From: Flavobacterium sp. N2820 | Lineage (GTDB): Bacteria; Bacteroidota; Bacteroidia; Flavobacteriales; Flavobacteriaceae | DNA length: 64,000 bases | NCBI RefSeq assembly: GCF_025947285.1 | Contig: NZ_CP110008.1 | Coordinates: 62,001-126,000, forward strand | Direction: 5' to 3' | Part shown: positions 1-22,600 of the stretch, in pieces | Layout: each line of letters begins with the position of its first letter | How positions within the stretch are numbered: position 1 is the stretch's first letter | Program-made: the position numbers and the translations under genes | Notes under the pieces: generated by a model | Database searches by the model: none | Told to the model about the DNA's origin: nothing | Seen by the model: only the letters and a program-made list of their open reading frames with translations

Positions 1-483
1 TATTCTTTTGATCTATTTTTGACCTATAGTATATCTATAAAATCACATTTTTAGACCTATATCTTTCAACTATTTTTTTGACCTATATTTATCTACTCTT
101 CGATAGATTATTTATCTATTTTACATTTATTTTCGAACTTAATTTTTCAATTATTTCTTTGATTTATTTTTGACCTATTCCTATCTACTTTTCGATAGAA
201 TAATTATCTATATTTCATTCACTTTCGAATCTACTTTTTCAATTATTCTTTTAATCTATTCTTATCTACTTTTCCATAGATTCATTATCTATTATACATT
301 TATTTTCTAATCTATATTTTCAATTATTTCTCTACGACCTATTCTTATCTATTTTTCGATAGATACTTTATCTATTTGTTAACCTATTTTGCATAGATTT
401 CCCGACCTATTTACTAATCTATAATTTCATCTGTTTATATCTATTTGTGACCTATAGCTTACCTATAAAGATTTGGTTTCTAT
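1..483. repeat. Dense array of CTAT boxes, four degenerate 81-92 bp repeats
   Basis: This non-coding stretch is packed with short CTAT boxes, usually as ACCTAT or ATCTAT. I count about 23 by eye on the plus strand, plus several CTAC variants and inverted ATAG copies. Neighbouring boxes are often 10-13 bp apart (for example starts at 13, 24, 35, 57, 70, 83 and 441, 452, 463), close to one helical turn. A longer unit starting TCAATTATT or TCAACTATT recurs at about 66, 147, 239 and 320. Each unit holds an inverted pair TATCTA...TAGA, and the clearest is TATCTAT-N6-ATAGATA at 347-366. I see no ORF here. It lies upstream of a MerR-like gene, so a protein-binding array is my inference. The left edge is outside the window. 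Confidence 0.7.
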
Positions 484-497
484 TGTTTTTCAGATTA

Positions 498-535
498 TTA
501 TATAAAAGTTTGTTTTATTACAAACTTTTATATAA
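498..535. promoter_or_regulatory. 15-bp perfect inverted repeat upstream of the MerR-like gene
   Basis: The arms at 498-512 and 521-535 are perfectly complementary (TTATATAAAAGTTTG and its reverse complement) around an 8-nt spacer. The repeat ends 27 bp before the ATG at 563. It could be an operator for autoregulation or a leader hairpin. No T-tract follows the right arm, so a terminator is unlikely. Confidence 0.6.
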
Positions 536-562
536 ATTCGTAGGGTCTTAAAAAATATTACT

Positions 563-1471
563 ATGATTAACGTTGCAGATTACTTTTTCGTTTTAGAGAA
601 AGCTCCTGATTTATTTGATAAAGTTCAGGAAAAGGTGTTTTTAAAAACAGAGATCGACATAGTTTATTCAGATATAAAAAATTGGGAAAGATCTAATTTG
701 CTTTCAGAATACAACGAAGCAGAAAAAGGAAACTGGAATAAAATTAGTTATTCTGAATATGTTTGGATAAAAATTGTAGAACAGTTAAAAGATTTTGGAT
801 GTAACAACGAAGATATAATAGTATTAAAAAAAGTACTTGTAAATAAATTCAAAGTAAATGATTACATCGCACTATTTGATGAGATAAAGAAAATTATAGG
901 AAATACAGAGTTTGAAATGTATTCTCAACTATATAAAGAGTTAAATGAATTAGATCCTCATAAAGAGTTTAATTTTAATCTTTTAGATATTTTTATTGTA
1001 AATATAATCTATACAGGTGAGCAACTTTCTTTATTTATAAGAAAAGATGAATCGCAATATTTTCTTCCTTTTTCTGATACAATGTTAAAAGAATATAGTA
1101 ACTCTAATGTTAGAAGTTTAGTTGATGATTTTCTGAATTTTCCGTTCTATAATATTCCAATAAGTAATTATGTTTCTAAATTTTTAAGTAATAGAAAAGA
1201 TATAAAAAATAATTTATTTACAATGATACTTACGGAACAAGAAAGTAAGTTATTAAAAATTATAAGAAAGAATTTTGAAAAAATTAAACAATTAAAAGTA
1301 AAATACAAGACAGGAAATATTGAATTAATTGAAGTTACTACAATAAAAAAAGTAGCTTTAGAAAGCAAAATAATCAATCACATTAAAAAGGCGGATTATA
1401 AAAAGATAACTATAGATATTGCTAACGGAAATATAGTAAACTTTGAAGATACCGAAAAAATAAAATTATGA
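563..1471 (+). CDS. MerR-like HTH DNA-binding protein of the mobile element
   Basis: This is a 302-aa protein of unknown specific role. Residues about 25-90 resemble a MerR-type winged helix: a sensor-like N-terminus, then YSDIKNWERSNLLS, a short wing region (GNWNKISYSEY), then VEQLKDFGCNNEDI, which matches the 'L...G.S..EI' helix of that fold. The rest is charged and matches no family I recognise; the region around residues 225-280 is lysine-rich. Codons are very A-rich and ATA is frequent, unlike the housekeeping genes further right. Its upstream region carries the CTAT array and a 15-bp inverted repeat, so it probably regulates itself or the element's recombination. The HTH assignment is moderately sure; the function is inference. 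Confidence 0.6.
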   Translation: MINVADYFFVLEKAPDLFDKVQEKVFLKTEIDIVYSDIKNWERSNLLSEYNEAEKGNWNKISYSEYVWIKIVEQLKDFGCNNEDIIVLKKVLVNKFKVNDYIALFDEIKKIIGNTEFEMYSQLYKELNELDPHKEFNFNLLDIFIVNIIYTGEQLSLFIRKDESQYFLPFSDTMLKEYSNSNVRSLVDDFLNFPFYNIPISNYVSKFLSNRKDIKNNLFTMILTEQESKLLKIIRKNFEKIKQLKVKYKTGNIELIEVTTIKKVALESKIINHIKKADYKKITIDIANGNIVNFEDTEKIKL

Positions 1472-1547
1472 TACTGAATAACTCAGATCTATAAATAAAT
1501 AGTAAGCTTATCGTAGAAAGCGAAAGTGATGCACATGTGTAATAAAC

Positions 1548-1721
1548 ATGGTTTCATTTAAAGAATGTAAAAAAATATTAAACAAAAAAGGAGTTAAATA
1601 TTCAGACGAGAATATTAGAGAAATTAAAGAGTTATTAGAGTTTTATGCAAAATTAACTGTTGAAGAATTTTATAAAAAAAATGATTATGAAAAGAGCAGT
1701 CATAATGTGTCGTGTAAGTAG
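1548..1721 (+). CDS. 57-aa small protein preceding the recombinase
   Basis: An ATG ORF of 57 residues begins MVSFKECKKILNKKG and ends with a TAG that lies inside the start of the recombinase gene (overlap about 35 bp, different frame). It is predicted to be mostly helical and rich in Lys and Glu, with no signal or membrane segment. I do not recognise a named family. Its position directly before the recombinase, with translational overlap, suggests co-expression. The overlap and A-rich leader support a real gene, but the evidence is limited to an open frame and context. Confidence 0.5.
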   Translation: MVSFKECKKILNKKGVKYSDENIREIKELLEFYAKLTVEEFYKKNDYEKSSHNVSCK

Positions 1722-3270
1722 TGATGAACAAGCTAAAGGATATAGTTTAGATATTCAATATGAACAATTGGTGAATTATTGTAAACGCAATAATATAGAA
1801 ATTGTAAAAGAATATAGAGAAGACCATTCAGCTAAAAATTTTAATAGACCAGAATATCAAAAATTTCTCAGTTTTTTAAAAAAGAATAAGAACAGTATTG
1901 ATTTATTGTTGATTACATCTTGGGATAGATTTTCCAGAAATTTAACAGACTCATTAATTATGATGAGAACTTTAGAAAAGTATGGGGTTGAGGTTCAGGC
2001 AATCGAACAACCAATTGACATGAGTATTCCTGAAAATAAGGCAATGTTAGCTATTTTTTTGGCCATTCCAGAGATTGATAATGATAGAAGGTCAATTAAA
2101 ATTAGAGGGGGAATTAGAGCTGCTTTAAAATCTGGAAGATGGTCAAGGATGGCTCCAATTGGATACAAAAATTCAAGAGATGAAAAGAATAAACCAATTG
2201 TAATTCTTAGTCACAATGCAACTTTAATTCACAATGCATTTAAAGATTTTAGTGAAGGAAAATTACAAAGTGATATAATTAAAGATTTAAGAAAAAAAGG
2301 AGTAATTATTAGTAGAAGTAATTTTTCAAAATTACTAAGAAATCCATTTTACATGGGTAAAATAATTGTTCCAAAATTTGAAAATGAACCTACACAAATT
2401 ATTGAAGGTATTCATGACGCAATTATTTCTGAAAATTTATACTACAATGTACAAGAAGTTTTAAGCGGTAAAAAATCAAATAAAAAAATAGGATATTCAT
2501 TTCAAAGAGAAGAATTTCCTTTAAGAGGAATATTGTTTTGTTCAAGCTGTGAAAGTAAGCTAACAGCAAGTAAATCAAAAAGTGCTACCGGCAGAAGATA
2601 TTCTTACTATCATTGTAATAATTGTCACAAAGAGCGTTTTTCAGCTGAAATTGTCAATTCAAACGTTGAATCAATACTTTCTGAATTTAAATTCACTCAA
2701 GAATCAAAAATTTTGTATGAATTAATGATAAAAAATATGCTTCAATCAAAATCAGAAGAAAGTAGTTTATCAAAAGAAAAATTATCAATTCAATTAAATG
2801 AGCAAAATAATCGCATTCAGAAATTACAAGATTTGTATGTTGATGGAAATATTGATAAAGAAAATTATATGCAAACCATGCAACGCTATGAAAATGTAAA
2901 AAGAGATTTAGTTGATAAAATAGATTCAATTCAAGTGACTAGTTTTGAGTATAATAATTGGTTGAAATCAGGAATACATTTTTTGAATAATCTTGAGAGT
3001 TTTTATATGAATGGAGGAGTTAAAGAGAAACAAGCTATACTAAGTTCGATATTTCCAGAAAAAATTTATTTTTTTAAAAACAAATGTCGAACTCAAAGAA
3101 TAAACGATATACTTAGATGTATGTTGTTGATTAATAGCGAATTGGGAAATAAAAAAAGTGGACAAAACTTCCAAAATTTGGAGTTGTCCACTTTAGTGGA
3201 GTCGGAGAGAATCGAACTCTCGTCCAAACAAGCAATCAAAAAGGTTTCTACACGCTTAGTTTCTTCTTAA
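1687..3270 (+). CDS. Large serine recombinase (site-specific integrase)
   Basis: It catalyses DNA strand exchange through a 5'-phosphoserine intermediate. The resolvase domain starts at once (MKRAVIMCRVSSDEQAKGYSL), with the catalytic Ser in the RVSSDEQ motif and the later DRFSRN and EIDNDRRS motifs. A recombinase domain and a zinc-ribbon follow (CSSC about 120 nt into the 2500s, then CNNC), then a coiled-coil around residues 360-420. I chose ATG 1687; an ATG at 1681 and a TTG at 1660 are alternatives. The last 24 or so codons (from VESERIELSSKQ) are read from the 3' end of ssrA on the opposite strand, and the codons before them cover the ssrA terminator. This suggests integration at ssrA by this enzyme, with the gene tail completed by the attachment site. 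Confidence 0.9.
   Translation: MKRAVIMCRVSSDEQAKGYSLDIQYEQLVNYCKRNNIEIVKEYREDHSAKNFNRPEYQKFLSFLKKNKNSIDLLLITSWDRFSRNLTDSLIMMRTLEKYGVEVQAIEQPIDMSIPENKAMLAIFLAIPEIDNDRRSIKIRGGIRAALKSGRWSRMAPIGYKNSRDEKNKPIVILSHNATLIHNAFKDFSEGKLQSDIIKDLRKKGVIISRSNFSKLLRNPFYMGKIIVPKFENEPTQIIEGIHDAIISENLYYNVQEVLSGKKSNKKIGYSFQREEFPLRGILFCSSCESKLTASKSKSATGRRYSYYHCNNCHKERFSAEIVNSNVESILSEFKFTQESKILYELMIKNMLQSKSEESSLSKEKLSIQLNEQNNRIQKLQDLYVDGNIDKENYMQTMQRYENVKRDLVDKIDSIQVTSFEYNNWLKSGIHFLNNLESFYMNGGVKEKQAILSSIFPEKIYFFKNKCRTQRINDILRCMLLINSELGNKKSGQNFQNLELSTLVESERIELSSKQAIKKVSTRLVSS
3151..3191 (-). terminator. Rho-independent terminator of ssrA
   Basis: On the minus strand, GTGGACAA (complement of 3184-3191) pairs with TTGTCCAC (complement of 3158-3165). 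Inner GGAGTT/AACTTCC pairing has a bulge, and a run of seven T residues follows (3157-3151). It lies immediately after the tmRNA 3' end and inside the recombinase reading frame. Confidence 0.8.
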
Positions 3271-3591
3271 ATTTTCGACCAAAAGCAAGGCTAGAAACCG
3301 CCACTTTTAGCTTAGCTTTATCAGTGTCAGAACGGATTTAAAGCATTACCATTCCTAGGTTTACTTTTACGGTTCTCCTAAACCAACCGCCATAAACCAA
3401 GGCTTTTGAGGAGAATCCAGCTTTCCTACCTAGTAGGAACATGGCAAATCTTACTATAATTCAGATTAAGCAGCTAAAGCGTAATTATTTTCGCCGTTTA
3501 TAGGTTTGTACATTTGGATTTACGAGCTAAATATACAACGCTCGACGTGCTTACTAATCAATTCCACTCGCTGTCAAAACCAGTCGACCCC
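3197..3591 (-). ncRNA. ssrA: tmRNA (transfer-messenger RNA), tag GENNYALAA
   Basis: The RNA rescues stalled ribosomes together with SmpB. The 5' end reads GGGGTCGACTGG (complement of 3591-3580). Its first seven bases pair with CGACTCC (complement of 3204-3198) to form the acceptor stem, including one G-U pair. The T-arm carries GTTCGATTC. The discriminator A is at 3197; the following encoded bases read CTA, so CCA appears not to be encoded. The tag frame occupies 3495-3466: GGC GAA AAT AAT TAC GCT TTA GCT GCT TAA, giving GENNYALAA. The 3' part is also the probable attachment site of the serine-recombinase element, yet the gene looks intact. Confidence 0.95.
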
Positions 3592-15671: not shown

Positions 15672-16571
15672 TTATCCGTTAATTGCCTCAACTTTGATGT
15701 CGTTGTCTTTTAGCATGTCTTTTAACATGTTTTCAATGCCATTTTTTAATGTAAAAGTAGAAGAAGGACATCCACTGCAAGCGCCTTGTAAAACTACTTT
15801 AACACGTTTTTCAGAAGCGTCAAATGATTCAAACATAATGTTTCCACCATCGCTTTGAACAGCTGGCTTTACATATTCTTCAATAATATTAATAATTTGT
15901 TGTGAAGTAACGTCTAAAGTGTCAAAATAAGCTTCTTGTTGTTTTTGGTGAATCTCGGTTTTTACAATCGCTGTTTCATCAATAACAACTTTGCCATTCT
16001 CAATATATTCTTTTATAAATGTTCTTAGTTCTAACGTAATTTCATCCCACTCTGTTATAGCAAATTTTGTAATAGAAATATAATTTTCATCAATAAAAAC
16101 TTCCTTAACGAATGGAAATTTGAATAATTCTTTTGCAAGTGGCGAAGCTAAAGTTTCATCAATGTTTTTGCATTCCAAAGCTGTTTTGGTTAACAATTTA
16201 TTGCATACAAATTTTAATACGGATGGGTTAGGAGTGGTTTCTGCATAAATAGTGATTGGCTGTTTTTTGTTCTGATTTTCCTCAATTTTTAAAACCTCTC
16301 CACCATTGGCAATAAAATCATTAATTTGACTAACAACATCATCCTGAACATCTTCCCATTCTACAATTGAAAATTTTTCAATAGCAATAAAATTACCTGA
16401 TATGTAAACCGTTTTTACAAAAGGCAGGAAAAATAATTGTTTGGCTAATGGAGATTGTTTTGTTTCATCAATGTTTTTAAACTCAAAGTTTTCACTTTTG
16501 ACAATGAATTCATCTAGTTCAAATTTAACAATCGAAGGGTTATTTGTTATTTTTATCGAAATTACACGCAT
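15672..16571 (-). CDS. NifU-like Fe-S scaffold with duplicated Nfu N-terminal domain
   Basis: It probably carries and hands over Fe-S clusters. The 299 residues contain two Nfu_N domains in tandem (first with NNPSIVKFELDEF and SPLAKQLFFLPFV, second with PNPSVLKFVCNKL and SPLAKELFKFPFV) and a C-terminal NifU domain with the cluster-binding CSGCPSS motif in LQGACSGCPSSTFTLKNGIE. I chose ATG 16571 (MRVISIKITNNPS); a TATCTTTG -7 box sits just upstream at 16588-16595, which excludes the longer TTG frame. The duplication is the odd point; most family members have one N domain. Confidence 0.9.
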   Translation of the reverse strand: MRVISIKITNNPSIVKFELDEFIVKSENFEFKNIDETKQSPLAKQLFFLPFVKTVYISGNFIAIEKFSIVEWEDVQDDVVSQINDFIANGGEVLKIEENQNKKQPITIYAETTPNPSVLKFVCNKLLTKTALECKNIDETLASPLAKELFKFPFVKEVFIDENYISITKFAITEWDEITLELRTFIKEYIENGKVVIDETAIVKTEIHQKQQEAYFDTLDVTSQQIINIIEEYVKPAVQSDGGNIMFESFDASEKRVKVVLQGACSGCPSSTFTLKNGIENMLKDMLKDNDIKVEAING

Positions 16572-16587
16572 TTTATGATAGTTTTCG

Positions 16588-16595
16588 CAAAGATA
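16588..16595 (-). promoter_or_regulatory. -7 box of the NifU-like gene
   Basis: The complement reads TATCTTTG, 16 bp before the ATG at 16571. Confidence 0.6.
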
Positions 16596-16632
16596 AGAAC
16601 AAAATATTTTCAAATGTTTATATTTGTCTTTT

Positions 16633-16656
16633 TAATCTAAATTTAACTTTAGATTA
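16633..16656. promoter_or_regulatory. 24-bp palindrome upstream of the giant surface protein
   Basis: TAATCTAAA (16633-16641), a 6-nt spacer and TTTAGATTA (16648-16656) form a perfect inverted repeat 23 bp before the ATG. It could be an operator or a leader hairpin; no T-tract follows. Confidence 0.55.
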
Positions 16657-16679
16657 ACGAACAACAAACTACAACCAAT

Positions 16680-19600
16680 ATGAAAAAAATTTACTTTTAT
16701 TTACTTTTATTAACATCATTTTTTGGTGTTTCTCAAACAGTTACAGTTAATACAACAACTTATACTGTCCCTCAATTAATAGAAGATATTTTAATTGATT
16801 CGCCATGTGCTTTGGTGTCAAATTTCACTTCTTCACCATCTTGTGGAATTGGATATTTCCAATATGCTGGAACAAATTTTGGTTTTTCATCTGGAGTTAT
16901 TCTTAGAAACGGACTCGCTGTTAATTCAGCTGGAAGTTACACGGGAAACAATATGAGTAGTACTTGCTCAACTTCGGGAGATGTTCAATTACAAGCTATT
17001 TCAAATGCCAATGGAAATACGGGATCTATTAATGATGTTACCTATGTTCAATTTGATTTCACACCTTTAACCGATAGATTTAGTTTCAATTATATATTTT
17101 CATCTAATGAATATGGAACGTTTCAATGTGGTTTCTCAGATGTATTTGCCTTTATCTTAACGGATTTAGTTACTGGAGTTACTACGAATTTAGCAGTGGT
17201 TCCTTCAACGACAACGCCAGTATCTGTTACTACAATTAGAAACAATGCACACAATGCAACATGTGCTTCGGTTAATCCTTTATTGTTTGATGTTTATAAC
17301 GTTGGAGCTCCTACATCTGTAATGAATATGAGAGGGTATACAGTTCCTTTAACGGCTTTTGCGGACGTAATTCCAAATAGAAATTATAGAATTAAATTAG
17401 CTATTGGAGATTATAATGATTCTGCATTTGATTCTGCGGTTTTTATTGAAGCAGGAAGTTTTAATGTAGGGGTTGCTGATTTAACATATCCTGTTGGTAT
17501 TGGTTTTGAGACCGATGACATGACAGAAGTTAATGGATTAGCTATGTGTCCTGGTGATATTAGAGTTTTGGATTCAAATTTAGATCCAGCAGATTATAAT
17601 TTTGTTTGGACTTTAGATTCAAATGTTTTAGTTGGAGAAACTGGTTCTACTTTAACTGTATCAGCTCCTGGAACTTATTGTTTAGCGGCAAGTAATATTT
17701 CGGGTGCTTCTTGTACTCAAACAGATTGTATTGTAGTGGAGTATTTACCAGGAATTACAGTTAATCAAAACCCACCAGATTTATACAGTTGTTCTTATAA
17801 TTTTAATTTAGCAGATAATAATTTGGAAGTTTTAGGGACATTAGATCCTATGGAATATGATGTTCTATTTTACCTAACCGCTCAAGATGCTATTGATAAT
17901 ACAAATCAAATTTCGGCAAATTTTCTAGCAACGCTGCCTGTAACACCAATTTTTGTTAGAGTTGAAAATTTTGCAATACCATGTCCGGCCTTTACACAAT
18001 TTGATGCAATAGTTAATTCGGCTTCACCAACGGTATCAATTTCTGGAACAACTACTATTCCTTCGGGGACTAGTACAACAATTACTTTTACAGGAACACC
18101 TAATGCAGTAGTTACTTACAATATAGATGGAGGTCCTCAACTAACAATAACATTAGATGCTACAGGTGTTGCTACTATCACAACTCCTAATCTTACAGCT
18201 GATACAACATATAACTTAGTTAGTGTTTTTAGTGGATGTTTAGTAAACGTTACAGGTAGTGCTATAATTACTATAGCTACTGGTCCTACAGCTTCAGTTA
18301 GTGCCAATACGATATGTTCAGGAACAACAGGTACTGTTACTTTTACGGGTACTCCAAATGCTGTAGTTACCTATACAGTTGACGGTTCACCAAATCAGAC
18401 GATAACTTTAGACGCTACGGGTCAATTTGTATTGACTACACCAGTTTTAACAGCAGATTCGGTTTACACTTTGGTAGAAGTTTCTGACGGAACGATAACT
18501 ACACCATTAACAGGTGTTACGGCTACGGTTACCGTTATTGCTTTACCAACAGCTACTATTTCTGGTACAACAGCTATTTGTTCAGGAAGTGCTACAGATT
18601 TAACCTTCACAGGAACAGCAGATGCGATTGTTACCTATACAGATGGTACAAGTAATTTTACCACCACATTAACAGGAGGAACATCAACAGTGAGTGTTTC
18701 ACCAACTACTACAACGACCTATAGTTTGGTAAGTGTTGCATCTAATACGACACCAGTTTGTACAGCTACTCCAACAGGTAGTGTTGTGATTACAGTTTCA
18801 CAGCAAGTAGCAGGAAGTTTAAGCTACACGCCATCAGATTTTTGTACGATTGATTTTGGTACATATGCGCCTACGGTTGTAATTTCTGGAGCGGGTACAG
18901 GCACATGTGCTTCAACTACACCAGTTTATACAGCAACACCAGCAGGTTTAACCATAGATGCAACAACAGGAGTTATTACGCCAAGTACAAGTGTAGTAGG
19001 TACATATACCATTACGCTTACTTATCCAGCTTGTGGCGGATGTGGAGTTGCAAATTTCACAACAACAGTAACCGTTTCTTCACCAGGGTCTGCTAGCGTT
19101 AGTTATACGACACCATTGTGTACAAATGACACAGCTACGTATGCGCCAACTTTAACAGGAGCAGGTTCAGCAACAAATTATACTGCTACTCCAGCAGGAT
19201 TATCAATAGATTTAATTACAGGAGTAATTAACCCAAGTGCAAGTACAGCGGGAACTTATACAATAAATTATACGCCAGCATCAGTAGGTGCTTGTGTTAT
19301 AGTTGGAACTCCAACAACAGTTACCATCACAGCAGCTCCAACAGCAGCTATAAGCTATGCGGGAACACCTTATTGTGATGATATTGCTACAGCACAAGCA
19401 GTTACTTTAACAGGAACGAATGCATATACAGGCGGAAGTTTCAGTGCTTCTCCAGCAGGTTTACTAATAGATGCTTCAACAGGAGCTATTACTCCAACTG
19501 GAAGTACAGCAGGAACATATACGGTAACGTACACCATTCCAGCGAGTGCAGGATGTGCAAGTAGTGATGTAACAACAACAGTTACCATAACAGGTTTACC

Positions 19601-22600
19601 AACAGCAGCTATCAGCTATGCGGGAACACCTTATTGTGATAACTTAGCTACGGCACAAGCAATTACCTTGACAGGAACGAATGCCTATACAGGCGGAAGT
19701 TTCAGTGCTACACCAGCAGGTTTACTTTTAGATGTAATAACAGGAGCGATTACCCCAACTGGAAGTACAGCAGGAACATATACGGTAACGTACACTATTC
19801 CAGCGAGTGCAGGATGTGCGAGTAGTGATGTAACTACTACAGTTACCATCACAGCAGCGCCAACAGCAGCTATCAGTTATGCGGCAACACCTTATTGTGA
19901 TGATATTGCTACGGCACAAGCTGTTACTTTAACAGGAACGAATGCCTATACAGGCGGAAGTTTCAGTGCTTCTCCAGCAGGTTTACTAATAGATGCTTCA
20001 ACAGGAGCGATTACTCCAACTGGAAGTACAGCAGGAACATATACGGTAACATACACTATTCCAGCGAGTGCAGGATGTGCAAGTAGTGATGTAGCAACAA
20101 CAGTAACCATAACAGGTTTACCAACAGCAGCTATTAGCTATGCAGGAACACCTTATTGTGATAACTTAGCTACGGCACAAGCAATTACCTTGACAGGAAC
20201 GAATGCATATACAGGCGGAAGTTTCAGTGCTACACCAGCAGGTTTACTTTTAGATGCTTCAACAGGAGCTATTACTCCAACTGGAAGTACAGCAGGAACA
20301 TATACTGTAACGTACACTATTCCAGCGAGTGCAGGATGTGCGAGTAGTGATGTAACTACTACAGTTACCATCACAGCAGCTCCAACAGCAGCTATCAGCT
20401 ATGCGGCAACACCTTATTGTGATGATATTGCTACAGCACAAGCAATTACCTTAACAGGAACGAATGCATATACAGGCGGAAGTTTTAGTGCTTCTCCAGC
20501 AGGTTTACTAATAGATACTTCAACAGGAGCGATTACTCCAAACGGAAGTACAGCAGGAACATATACGGTAACGTACACTATTCCAGCGAGTGCAGGATGT
20601 GCAAGTAGTGATGTAACAACAACAGTAACCATAACAGGTTTACCAACAGCAGCTATCAGCTATGCAGGAACACCTTATTGTGATAACTTAGCTACGGCAC
20701 AAGCAATTACCTTGACAGGAACGAATGCATATACAGGCGGAAGTTTCAGTGCTACACCAGCAGGTTTACTTTTAGATGCAATAACAGGAGCGATTACTCC
20801 AACAGGAAGTACAGCAGGAACATATACGGTAACGTACACTATTCCAGCGAGTGCAGGATGTGCGAGTAGTGATGTAACTACTACAGTTACCATCACAGCA
20901 GCGCCAACAGCAGCTATCAGTTATGCAGCAACACCTTATTGTGATGATATTGCTACGGCACAAGCAGTTACTTTAACAGGAACGAATGCGTATACAGGCG
21001 GAAGTTTTAGTGCTTCTCCAGCAGGTTTACTAATAGATGCTTCAACAGGAGCGATTACTCCAACTGGAAGTACAGCAGGAACATATACGGTAACGTACAC
21101 TATTCCAGCGAGTGCAGGATGTGCAAGTAGTGATGTAACAACAACAGTAACCATAACAGGTTTACCAACAGCAGCTATCAGCTATGCGGGAACACCTTAT
21201 TGTGATAACTTAGCTACGGCACAAGCAATTACCTTGACAGGAACGAATGCCTATACAGGAGGAAGTTTCAGTGCTACTCCAGCAGGTTTACTTTTAGATG
21301 CTTCAACAGGAGCGATTACTCCAACTGGAAGTACAGCAGGAACATATACGGTAACGTACACTATTCCAGCGAGTGCAGGATGTGCGAGTAGTGATGTAAC
21401 TACTACAGTTACCATCACAGCAGCTCCAACAGCAGCTATCAGTTATGCGGGAACCCCTTATTGTGATGATATTGCTACAGGACAAGCCGTTACTTTAACA
21501 GGAACGAATGCATATACAGGCGGAAGTTTCAGTGCTTCTCCAACAGGTTTACTAATAGATGCTTCAACAGGGGCGATCACTCCAAACGGAAGTACAGCAG
21601 GAACATATACGGTAACGTACACTATTCCAGCGAGTGCAGGATGTGCAAGTAGTACGGTAAGTACAACGCTAACAATTATTGCTGTTCCACAAATTACACT
21701 TACTTCAAGTGTTGCATCTACAAATCAAACCATTTGTGTTAATACAGCAATAGGTAATATTACTTATACTTTTGGAGGAAGTGCAACAGGAGTTAATGTG
21801 GTAGGTTTACCAGCAGGTGTAACAGCTTCGACTTCTGGAAATGTAGTTACTATAAGTGGTACGCCAACATCAGCAACAGCTGCGACTTTTAATTATACAA
21901 TTACGGCTACAGGAAGTATTTGTGGTACACCGAGTTTATCGGGCAGTATTACTCTTACAAACGGAATTGCACCAATTTTCACGCAAGCAAATGCGGTTTG
22001 TGATGGAGTAACAATAAATTTACCAACTACATCAACCAATGGTATTACAGGTGCATGGCAACTTATAAGTTCTACACCAACCGATGCAACATATGAGTTT
22101 ACACCCGATGCAGGACAATGTGCATTGAATACACAAATGACCGTTCAAATATATCCACGCCCGGTGGTAACAGCTACTGTTTTACCAAGTACAGGTGTTC
22201 TTTGTTCAGGAGATGTTGTAGATATTCAATTGAGCAGTAATGTTCCTGGGGCTATTTTTTCATGGACCTCTAGTAGTGCAACAGTTACAGGTCATTCATC
22301 ATCAGTAGTTGGTTCTACCGATACGTTTATCAACCAGACTTTGGTTTTAAATTCAGGAATTACAGGAACAGGAGAGGTTGTTTATGGAATAGTTGCAGAG
22401 GCCAATGGATGTGTTGGGGAAACAGTTTTCGTTACGATTTCAGTAAATCCTATACCCGATGTTACGGTAACCGGTGATGGCCAAACGATTTGTTCTGGCG
22501 AGACGACAAATATTTCTTTTGAGGGCACAGTAAACAATACCGTTTTCACATGGGTTGTTCAAAGTAGCACAGGAGTTTCAGGCGCATCAAATGGATCAGG

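Follow-up and report, generated by a model that had tools for sequence, protein, structure and literature searches.

Defence islands inserted at ssrA (tmRNA) or tRNA genes by serine recombinases are a known kind of element, and the directionality factors of large serine recombinases are both hard to recognise and useful. Phased direct repeats are familiar from iteron plasmids, in which AT-rich repeats of this type lie beside an initiator gene with a palindrome at its promoter, and from the ParR/parC centromere, in which direct repeats of ~11 bp are paired with a ribbon-helix-helix protein. Among winged helix-turn-helix (wHTH) proteins, BldC of Streptomyces, a MerR-like protein made of the wHTH domain only, coats AT-rich direct repeats of 9 bp in variable repeat number (PMC5859096), and RdfS, a wHTH directionality factor, forms filaments on DNA without a clear motif (PMC11963761). 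A paper on a Riemerella integrase concerns an Arg-tRNA island and has no bearing on the array described here (PMC6764341).

Here we describe an array of ~800 bases at the control end of a mobile gene-insertion module, built from short boxes that recur at intervals of 11 to 12 bases. The window analysed is a stretch of 64,000 nucleotides (C1:62001-126000) of a single-contig genome of 3.06 Mb, which its named relatives F. cheniae, F. aquaticum and F. celericrescens place in Flavobacterium. Most likely the array is a landing strip for a DNA-coating protein that controls the module, and the gene beside it encodes a candidate binder, the 302-residue protein p302 (Table 1). The module shares with known ssrA defence islands a recombinase at one end, a tmRNA target and exchangeable defence cargo, whereas a regular MerR-like partner with a phased array is not described there, as judged by titles and abstract openings; the same literature search, which left most subscription journals outside its scope, found nothing describing the module or the array. 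With BldC the locus shares a putative MerR-like class and AT-rich direct repeats, on which head-to-tail cooperative binding would tolerate degenerate boxes, while p302 is far longer than a wHTH domain, the repeat measures 11.55 bp rather than 9 bp, and array binding is putative here. Like RdfS and lambda Xis, p302 would be a wHTH protein encoded with an integrase, but those factors are described with tyrosine recombinases, whereas here p302 accompanies a large serine recombinase, and ~2.7 kb lie between the array and the tmRNA end. The ~11-bp direct repeats, and ribbon-helix-helix-like proteins in relatives, recall ParR/parC, but no partition NTPase was seen by eye and the window genome gave no ribbon-helix-helix-like match at E 0.001 in a search of limited reach.

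Table 1. Features of the module in left-to-right order, the tmRNA gene being on the opposite strand; window position 1 is C1:62001.
Feature	Window position	Strand	Description
Phased box array, right-hand part	1..470		Boxes like NAYCTATTTTN on an 11.55-bp lattice; higher-order units of 81-92 bp
Palindrome at the p302 promoter	498..535 (38 bp)		TTATATAAAAGTTTGT, 6 bases, ACAAACTTTTATATAA; candidate operator
p302 (302 residues)	563..1471	+	Divergent MerR-like family member; regular recombinase partner
57-aa open frame	1548..1721	+	Overlaps the recombinase start
Large serine recombinase	1687..3270	+	Resolvase, Recombinase and zinc ribbon domains; frame listed as 1660-3270
tmRNA gene (ssrA), integration target	3196..3591	-	3' end overlaps the recombinase frame

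The setting is that of an ssrA island: the large serine recombinase lies at the tmRNA 3' end, its own 3' end running antisense within the tmRNA gene, and relatives carry other DNA at this place. In three genomes with tmRNA regions 85-88% identical (L119, L120, L122), this tmRNA end is directly flanked by a different sequence that looks terminator-like by eye, and we therefore take the module to be inserted there. Self-comparison of window 1-600 gave no match elsewhere in the genome and one palindromic self-match. In C1:60001-66500 the tmRNA alone reached the Rfam gathering score, with no other known structured RNA; C1:61450-62700 held 6 sigma-70 promoter-like sites versus 8.8 in shuffles and no terminator-like sites in the scan; and the 57-aa frame had no Pfam match above the cut-off. 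A hairpin with a T-run lies left of the array in all four species (by eye). In another genome (G356), the last 121 tmRNA bases recur at C1:3321919-3322039, ~9.4 kb from the gene; this second copy, 79% identical to the tmRNA of the window genome, might be what another island at the same site leaves behind.

The initial annotation had counted about 23 CTAT boxes by eye with inverted copies, and the exact count in window 1-483 is 23 CTAT and 7 ATAG. Dinucleotide shuffles of this stretch gave 8.5 ± 2.4 CTAT (maximum 16 in 500 shuffles) and 1.6 ± 1.1 ATAG (maximum 5 in 500), so that chance supplies more than the 'few' CTAT first estimated, although the excess is clear. The degenerate long units also stood up, Tandem Repeats Finder returning periods of 81 bp (3.7 copies) and 92 bp (1.9 copies). 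The window edge cuts the array, whose start lies ~335 bp further left at ~C1:61665 (by eye); a 150-bp period in 2.1 copies starts at C1:61863, four ATAG lie within C1:61701-61800, and C1:61841-62470 holds 31 CTAT versus 11.3 in shuffles. The boxes are directional AT-rich direct repeats, with CTAYTTT on a single strand and a GC content of 22-23%.

A spacing of mostly 10-13 bp, as first proposed, applies to only 9 of the 22 CTAT intervals in window 1-483; nine of the other 13 are near multiples of 11.5 bp (22, 22, 23, 23, 23, 33, 33, 48 and 59) and four are not (6, 17, 27 and 27). Over a scan of 9.5-13 bp, YTAY boxes peaked at 11.55 bp with none of 300 shuffles as strong, and T-runs in the array peaked at 11.55 bp too (0/300). 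CTAT periodicity was matched in none of 1000 uniform placements and was marginal against a bootstrap of its own spacings (P 0.06-0.09; 0.28 in F. cheniae), because locally regular spacing alone yields much of the signal. Plain autocorrelation did not single out the arrays of this clade (z 3.7-4.2, with the controls' 95th percentile at 5.0), and the claim is therefore borne by the lattice test. Together, the box counts above shuffles and the lattice confirm that the array is non-random. The proposal that a protein winds along one face of the helix failed, since the best period is 11.55-11.6 bp and power at 10.5 bp is at most 1.1, outside the class of operators helically phased at 10.5 bp. At 10.5 bp per turn, boxes 11.55 bp apart step by ~36 degrees each, and thus wind round the helix instead of lying on one side.

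We then compared the array among sister species, in which p302 is 99-100% (F. cheniae), 84% (F. celericrescens) and 82% (F. aquaticum) identical to that of the window. F. cheniae has a shorter array that likewise shows an 11.55-bp YTAY lattice (0/300 shuffles), and the expectation that the same array would stand near homologues held for this species, while no other relative examined has the same CTAT array. In the alignment to F. cheniae, the left flank is 90% and the array 92% identical where aligned, with 192 gap columns in the 700-bp array and substitutions of 8% in the array and 10% in the left flank; the p302-recombinase gap is 100% identical and the recombinase only 72-83%. These uneven identities indicate that the module is a mosaic and that the array alters by gain or loss of units. 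From window 1684 onward, at the recombinase start, identity to F. cheniae breaks sharply from 100% to 83%, which suggests recombination between modules. The p302-recombinase gap (window 1472-1683), 93-100% identical to the three sister species, is the most conserved DNA of the module apart from the tmRNA.

In F. celericrescens and F. aquaticum, the corresponding position is taken by T-rich stretches that are unalignable with the window array (63% and 58% identity over 40-45% of the array). In F. celericrescens, YTAY boxes fall on a lattice of 11.55 bp (1/300 shuffles) and T-runs on one of 11.40 bp (1/300), whereas CTAY boxes were not periodic against uniform placement (P 0.67); the 11.5-bp lattice thus holds in two of three tests and depends on the box definition. 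F. aquaticum showed no significant lattice (YTAY 59/300 shuffles; T-runs 170/300). CTAYTTT is in excess on the plus strand of all four species (12, 10, 4 and 5 for the window genome, F. cheniae and then the other two sister species, versus 1.6, 1.4, 0.4 and 1.6 in shuffles) and never occurs on their minus strand; the broader YTAYYT box showed no excess in F. celericrescens (11 versus 12.7). Curvature, predicted with general wedge parameters and checked on A4T4 and T4A4 tracts, gave z values over shuffles of 3.4 for the window array, 4.7 for F. cheniae, 2.3 for F. celericrescens and 1.5 for F. aquaticum, while in 250 control windows the 95th and 99th percentiles were 1.88 and 3.08 and the highest value was 5.52; the right half of the window array reached 1.6.

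To place p302, we collected 31 loci (the window, L009-L011, L051-L058, L082-L086 and L103-L116; in L113-L115 the match is a C-terminal piece of ~100 residues only). In 28 of them a same-strand recombinase follows p302 on its 3' side, within 300 bp in 27 and at 1.7 kb in L114; contig ends truncate L055 and L106 there, none is present near p302 in L086, and the recombinase of L110 is in two frames. The recombinase frame overlaps a tmRNA or tRNA gene (Met, Leu, Val, Glu, Arg) antisense in 24 of the 28, and the remaining four comprise L084 with tRNA-Gln 158 bp off, L103, which is cut, and L111 and L116, in which none was found. p302 is thus a regular partner of a large serine recombinase that runs antisense into a tmRNA or tRNA gene. 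Genomes with a p302 match at E 0.001 numbered 3/299 in the family and 9/398 in the genus (single-sequence search, the window's own counted), and 8/395 in the phylum and 16/395 in the order (12-row profile); these counts include some weak matches, and the hits in G026 (L007), G946 and G1028 were weak. No relatives in viral contigs were confirmed. The label 'MerR-like' has weak support: p302 alone gave no MerR match and no confident Pfam or PHROG match, but a relative 20% identical (L056) passes the PF13411 (MerR_1) cut-off (32.7 versus 21.6 bits), and the family profile matched MerR regulators in the PDB at E 0.022-0.026. Structure prediction from four near-identical sequences reached a pLDDT of 38, too low for a usable fold model. 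At L058 (G268 C1), a reverse-transcriptase-like frame (YVDD motif by eye) adjoins the p302 module; positions 15789-17214 contain a second recombinase homologue.

Across a scan of 26 loci, a GTTTGT..ACAAAC palindrome was found at the p302 promoter of the window genome, L009, L010, L011, L051, L052 and L055, and by eye also of L053, giving eight Flavobacterium loci; it is absent in L054. Its inverted-repeat score exceeded all 40 shuffles in the window genome, L009, L010 and L011, and was reached by 1/40 (L051), 2/40 (L055) and 12/40 (L052) shuffles; in L052 it is backed only by the common words. L084, L085, L112 and L116 have other palindromes above all shuffles, and many distant loci of the scan have none. 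The palindrome half-site bears no resemblance to the array boxes, and we regard the palindrome as a better candidate than the array for a conserved p302 operator. The adjacent MerR-like protein had been named as the obvious array binder; that claim is weakened, because the palindrome is conserved with p302, as the CTAT boxes are not, and because the repeats of relatives adjoin a second gene.

This second gene encodes a ribbon-helix-helix-like coiled-coil protein divergent from p302 in L052, L054, L055, L057, L103, L104 and L105 (by eye), with a C-terminal hydrophobic stretch where complete (by eye; the L105 copy is cut by a contig end), and it is on the same strand as p302 in L058; L051, L053 and L083 have in its place a CxxC protein and a small membrane protein. 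Three of four ribbon-helix-helix-like proteins tested gave weak matches, below the cut-off, to the mobilisation protein NikA. A search with the L052 protein at E 0.001 matched 7 of 13 genomes and none of the window genome, three sister species, G570 and G479, and its reach is limited, since the copy in L055 went unmatched.

Short repeats sit just beyond or before the second gene, with direct-repeat lags of 11 (L054, L055), 22 (L052), 10 (L051, L053) and 20 (L083) and z of 4.3-7.3, against 90th and 95th percentiles of 4.3 and 5.0 in 200 control windows. In all five of L051-L055 (same genus, p302 37-41% identical), the local repeat signal is highest at lag 10, 11 or 22; z values of at least 4.3 paired with a lag of 10-12 or 21-23 occurred in 4% of the 200 control windows; L051 and L053 are below the controls' 95th percentile. 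L107 (lag 21, z 4.4) passes the 90th percentile and the remaining loci do not. In a separate test with 113 other controls and helical lags only, 4 of 24 full-length upstream regions exceeded the 95th percentile (L051, L052, L053, L055), L054 (z 7.7) being outside that count since its upstream stretch is short. About five 11-bp boxes were seen by eye in L104 and L105, and some such boxes in L103-L105. Phased direct repeats near homologues were thus seen at L051-L055 and L083, that is, at five more loci in the genus and one outside it, and phasing near p302 recurs while the repeat sequence does not. Across these six loci only, the period may follow the partner gene, with 11/22 for the ribbon-helix-helix-like gene and 10/20 for the CxxC pair. 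A box matrix built from L052, L103 and L104 was not significantly found in the window array (32/200 shuffles; plus-strand values of 3 in F. cheniae, 13 in F. aquaticum and 156 in F. celericrescens).

We tentatively favour the reading that a p302-type protein coats the array, which would serve as a binding array in the control region of a tmRNA-targeting serine-recombinase island. This reading builds on the array, its lattice and position, the p302-recombinase-t(m)RNA module, the recurring phased repeats and the moderate predicted curvature; from these we infer a protein bound to the array, its identity as p302 and an effect on excision. A DNA-binding protein would assemble along boxes ~1.1 helical turns (11.55 bp) apart, and the bound protein would bend the T-rich DNA, set the activity of the p302-recombinase promoter and so direct excision or integration. 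The binder would most likely be a protein of the element that reads direct repeats partly through T-tract shape. As the sole linked candidate in the window lineage, p302 could act like BldC, lambda Xis or RdfS, forming head-to-tail wHTH filaments, and the palindrome would then be a strong start site for the filament. Counting for this reading are the place of the array in a mobile element next to its own recombinase, the recombinase 3' of p302 at 28/31 loci, the box excess and one-strand bias, the lattice, the recurrence, the curvature, and the precedent of BldC and RdfS; counting against it are the failures of CTAY and YTAYYT in F. celericrescens, the lack of a lattice in F. aquaticum, the unremarkable plain autocorrelation of this clade, the 32/200 result of the box matrix, the conservation of the palindrome rather than the array with p302, the second gene beside the repeats of relatives and the low-quality structure model. 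Since p302 is the only linked candidate, but sequence ties p302 to the palindrome and the repeats of relatives to the second gene, our confidence is spread over this reading and the two that follow.

Somewhat unlikely, and ranking next, is a neutral satellite, T-rich DNA without function that slippage and unequal exchange amplified beside the element. The fast turnover fits it, with 192 gap columns against F. cheniae where p302 is 99-100% identical, array substitutions (8%) about as frequent as those of the left flank (10%), no lattice in F. aquaticum and an F. celericrescens lattice that hinges on the box definition. Yet a neutral satellite sits poorly with a YTAY and T-run lattice of 11.4-11.55 bp kept in F. 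celericrescens despite unalignable sequence, with one-strand box bias in 4/4 species, and with phased repeats near p302 in other genomes. We consider it unlikely, in third place, that the array is the site of another phased DNA-binding protein, the gene for which was lost, diverged or became unlinked in the window lineage. The ribbon-helix-helix-like, coiled-coil, membrane-anchored protein of relatives would be one such binder and the CxxC protein with its small membrane protein another, either of which would tether, partition or mobilise the element after excision, or regulate itself. The second gene beside p302 at the eight ribbon-helix-helix-like and three two-gene loci, the repeats adjoining it at lags of 11/22 or 10/20, the boxes seen in L104 and L105 and the weak NikA-like matches speak for it; set against them are the 0/4 result of the L052 protein in the window genome and sister species, within the limited reach of that search, the absence by eye of a relaxase or partition NTPase from the open reading frame lists near the array, and the 32/200 result of the matrix linking the boxes.

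The other two readings are far less probable. It is very improbable that the array is curved T-tract DNA on which a host nucleoid protein is recruited and silences the island: curvature exceeded shuffles in three of four arrays (z 3.4, 4.7, 2.3), but F. aquaticum (z 1.5) and the right half of the window array (z 1.6) fall short, planar bending would be better served by a phase other than 11.55 bp, and the CTAY boxes would go unexplained. Least probable of all is an iteron-type replication origin that serves the excised circle, p302 being its initiator, a layout suggested by AT-rich phased direct repeats beside a gene of ~300 residues with a promoter palindrome; here neither Pfam (p302 and five relatives) nor PHROGs (p302 and four) gave a replication-initiator family, and the palindrome half-site is unlike the array boxes.

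A bolder extension of control by a p302 coat, which we think doubtful, is that p302 founds a MerR-like family of directionality factors for the large serine recombinases that target tRNA and tmRNA genes in Bacteroidota, and that it coats an 11.55-bp array that evolves fast under selection for phase, not sequence. If so, the excision switch of the element would read DNA geometry, and an array that retains its spacing through sequence turnover would illustrate such reading cleanly. As a regular recombinase partner, p302 is a readily testable candidate for a directionality factor, and such a switch bears on the movement of defence genes, as the module adjoins exchangeable anti-phage cargo.

The genes left of the array differ among the four species and end at or near a common boundary, AACAGC.GTTTGCTTCAAT (by eye). 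They include Hachiman HamA and HamB in the window genome, SIR2-HerA in F. cheniae, and a CBASS-type cyclase with a one-TM effector in F. celericrescens; the F. aquaticum cargo protein, one of nine proteins tested, gave no match. We read the island as a recombinase module with swappable defence cargo. HamB is split into two frames by an in-frame stop (L003 14268-16577; C1:58268-60577). Words resembling the attC consensus bound the defence cargo (C1:57345-61520); their positions are C1:57345 (one mismatch), 60576 and 61506. Elsewhere in the genome, C1:1182800-1199623 contains ten exact AACAGCGGTTTGC words, spaced 0.5-4 kb. A tyrosine recombinase at 1179806-1180621 adjoins these ten words and was the best match to an integron-integrase profile, below the cut-off; 14 of 14 control genomes gave sub-cut-off matches too, hence its identity as IntI is not supported. 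An integron may have delivered cassettes to the tmRNA island. Further into the window, nine tandem 261-bp repeats with 88% matches occupy 19312-21653.
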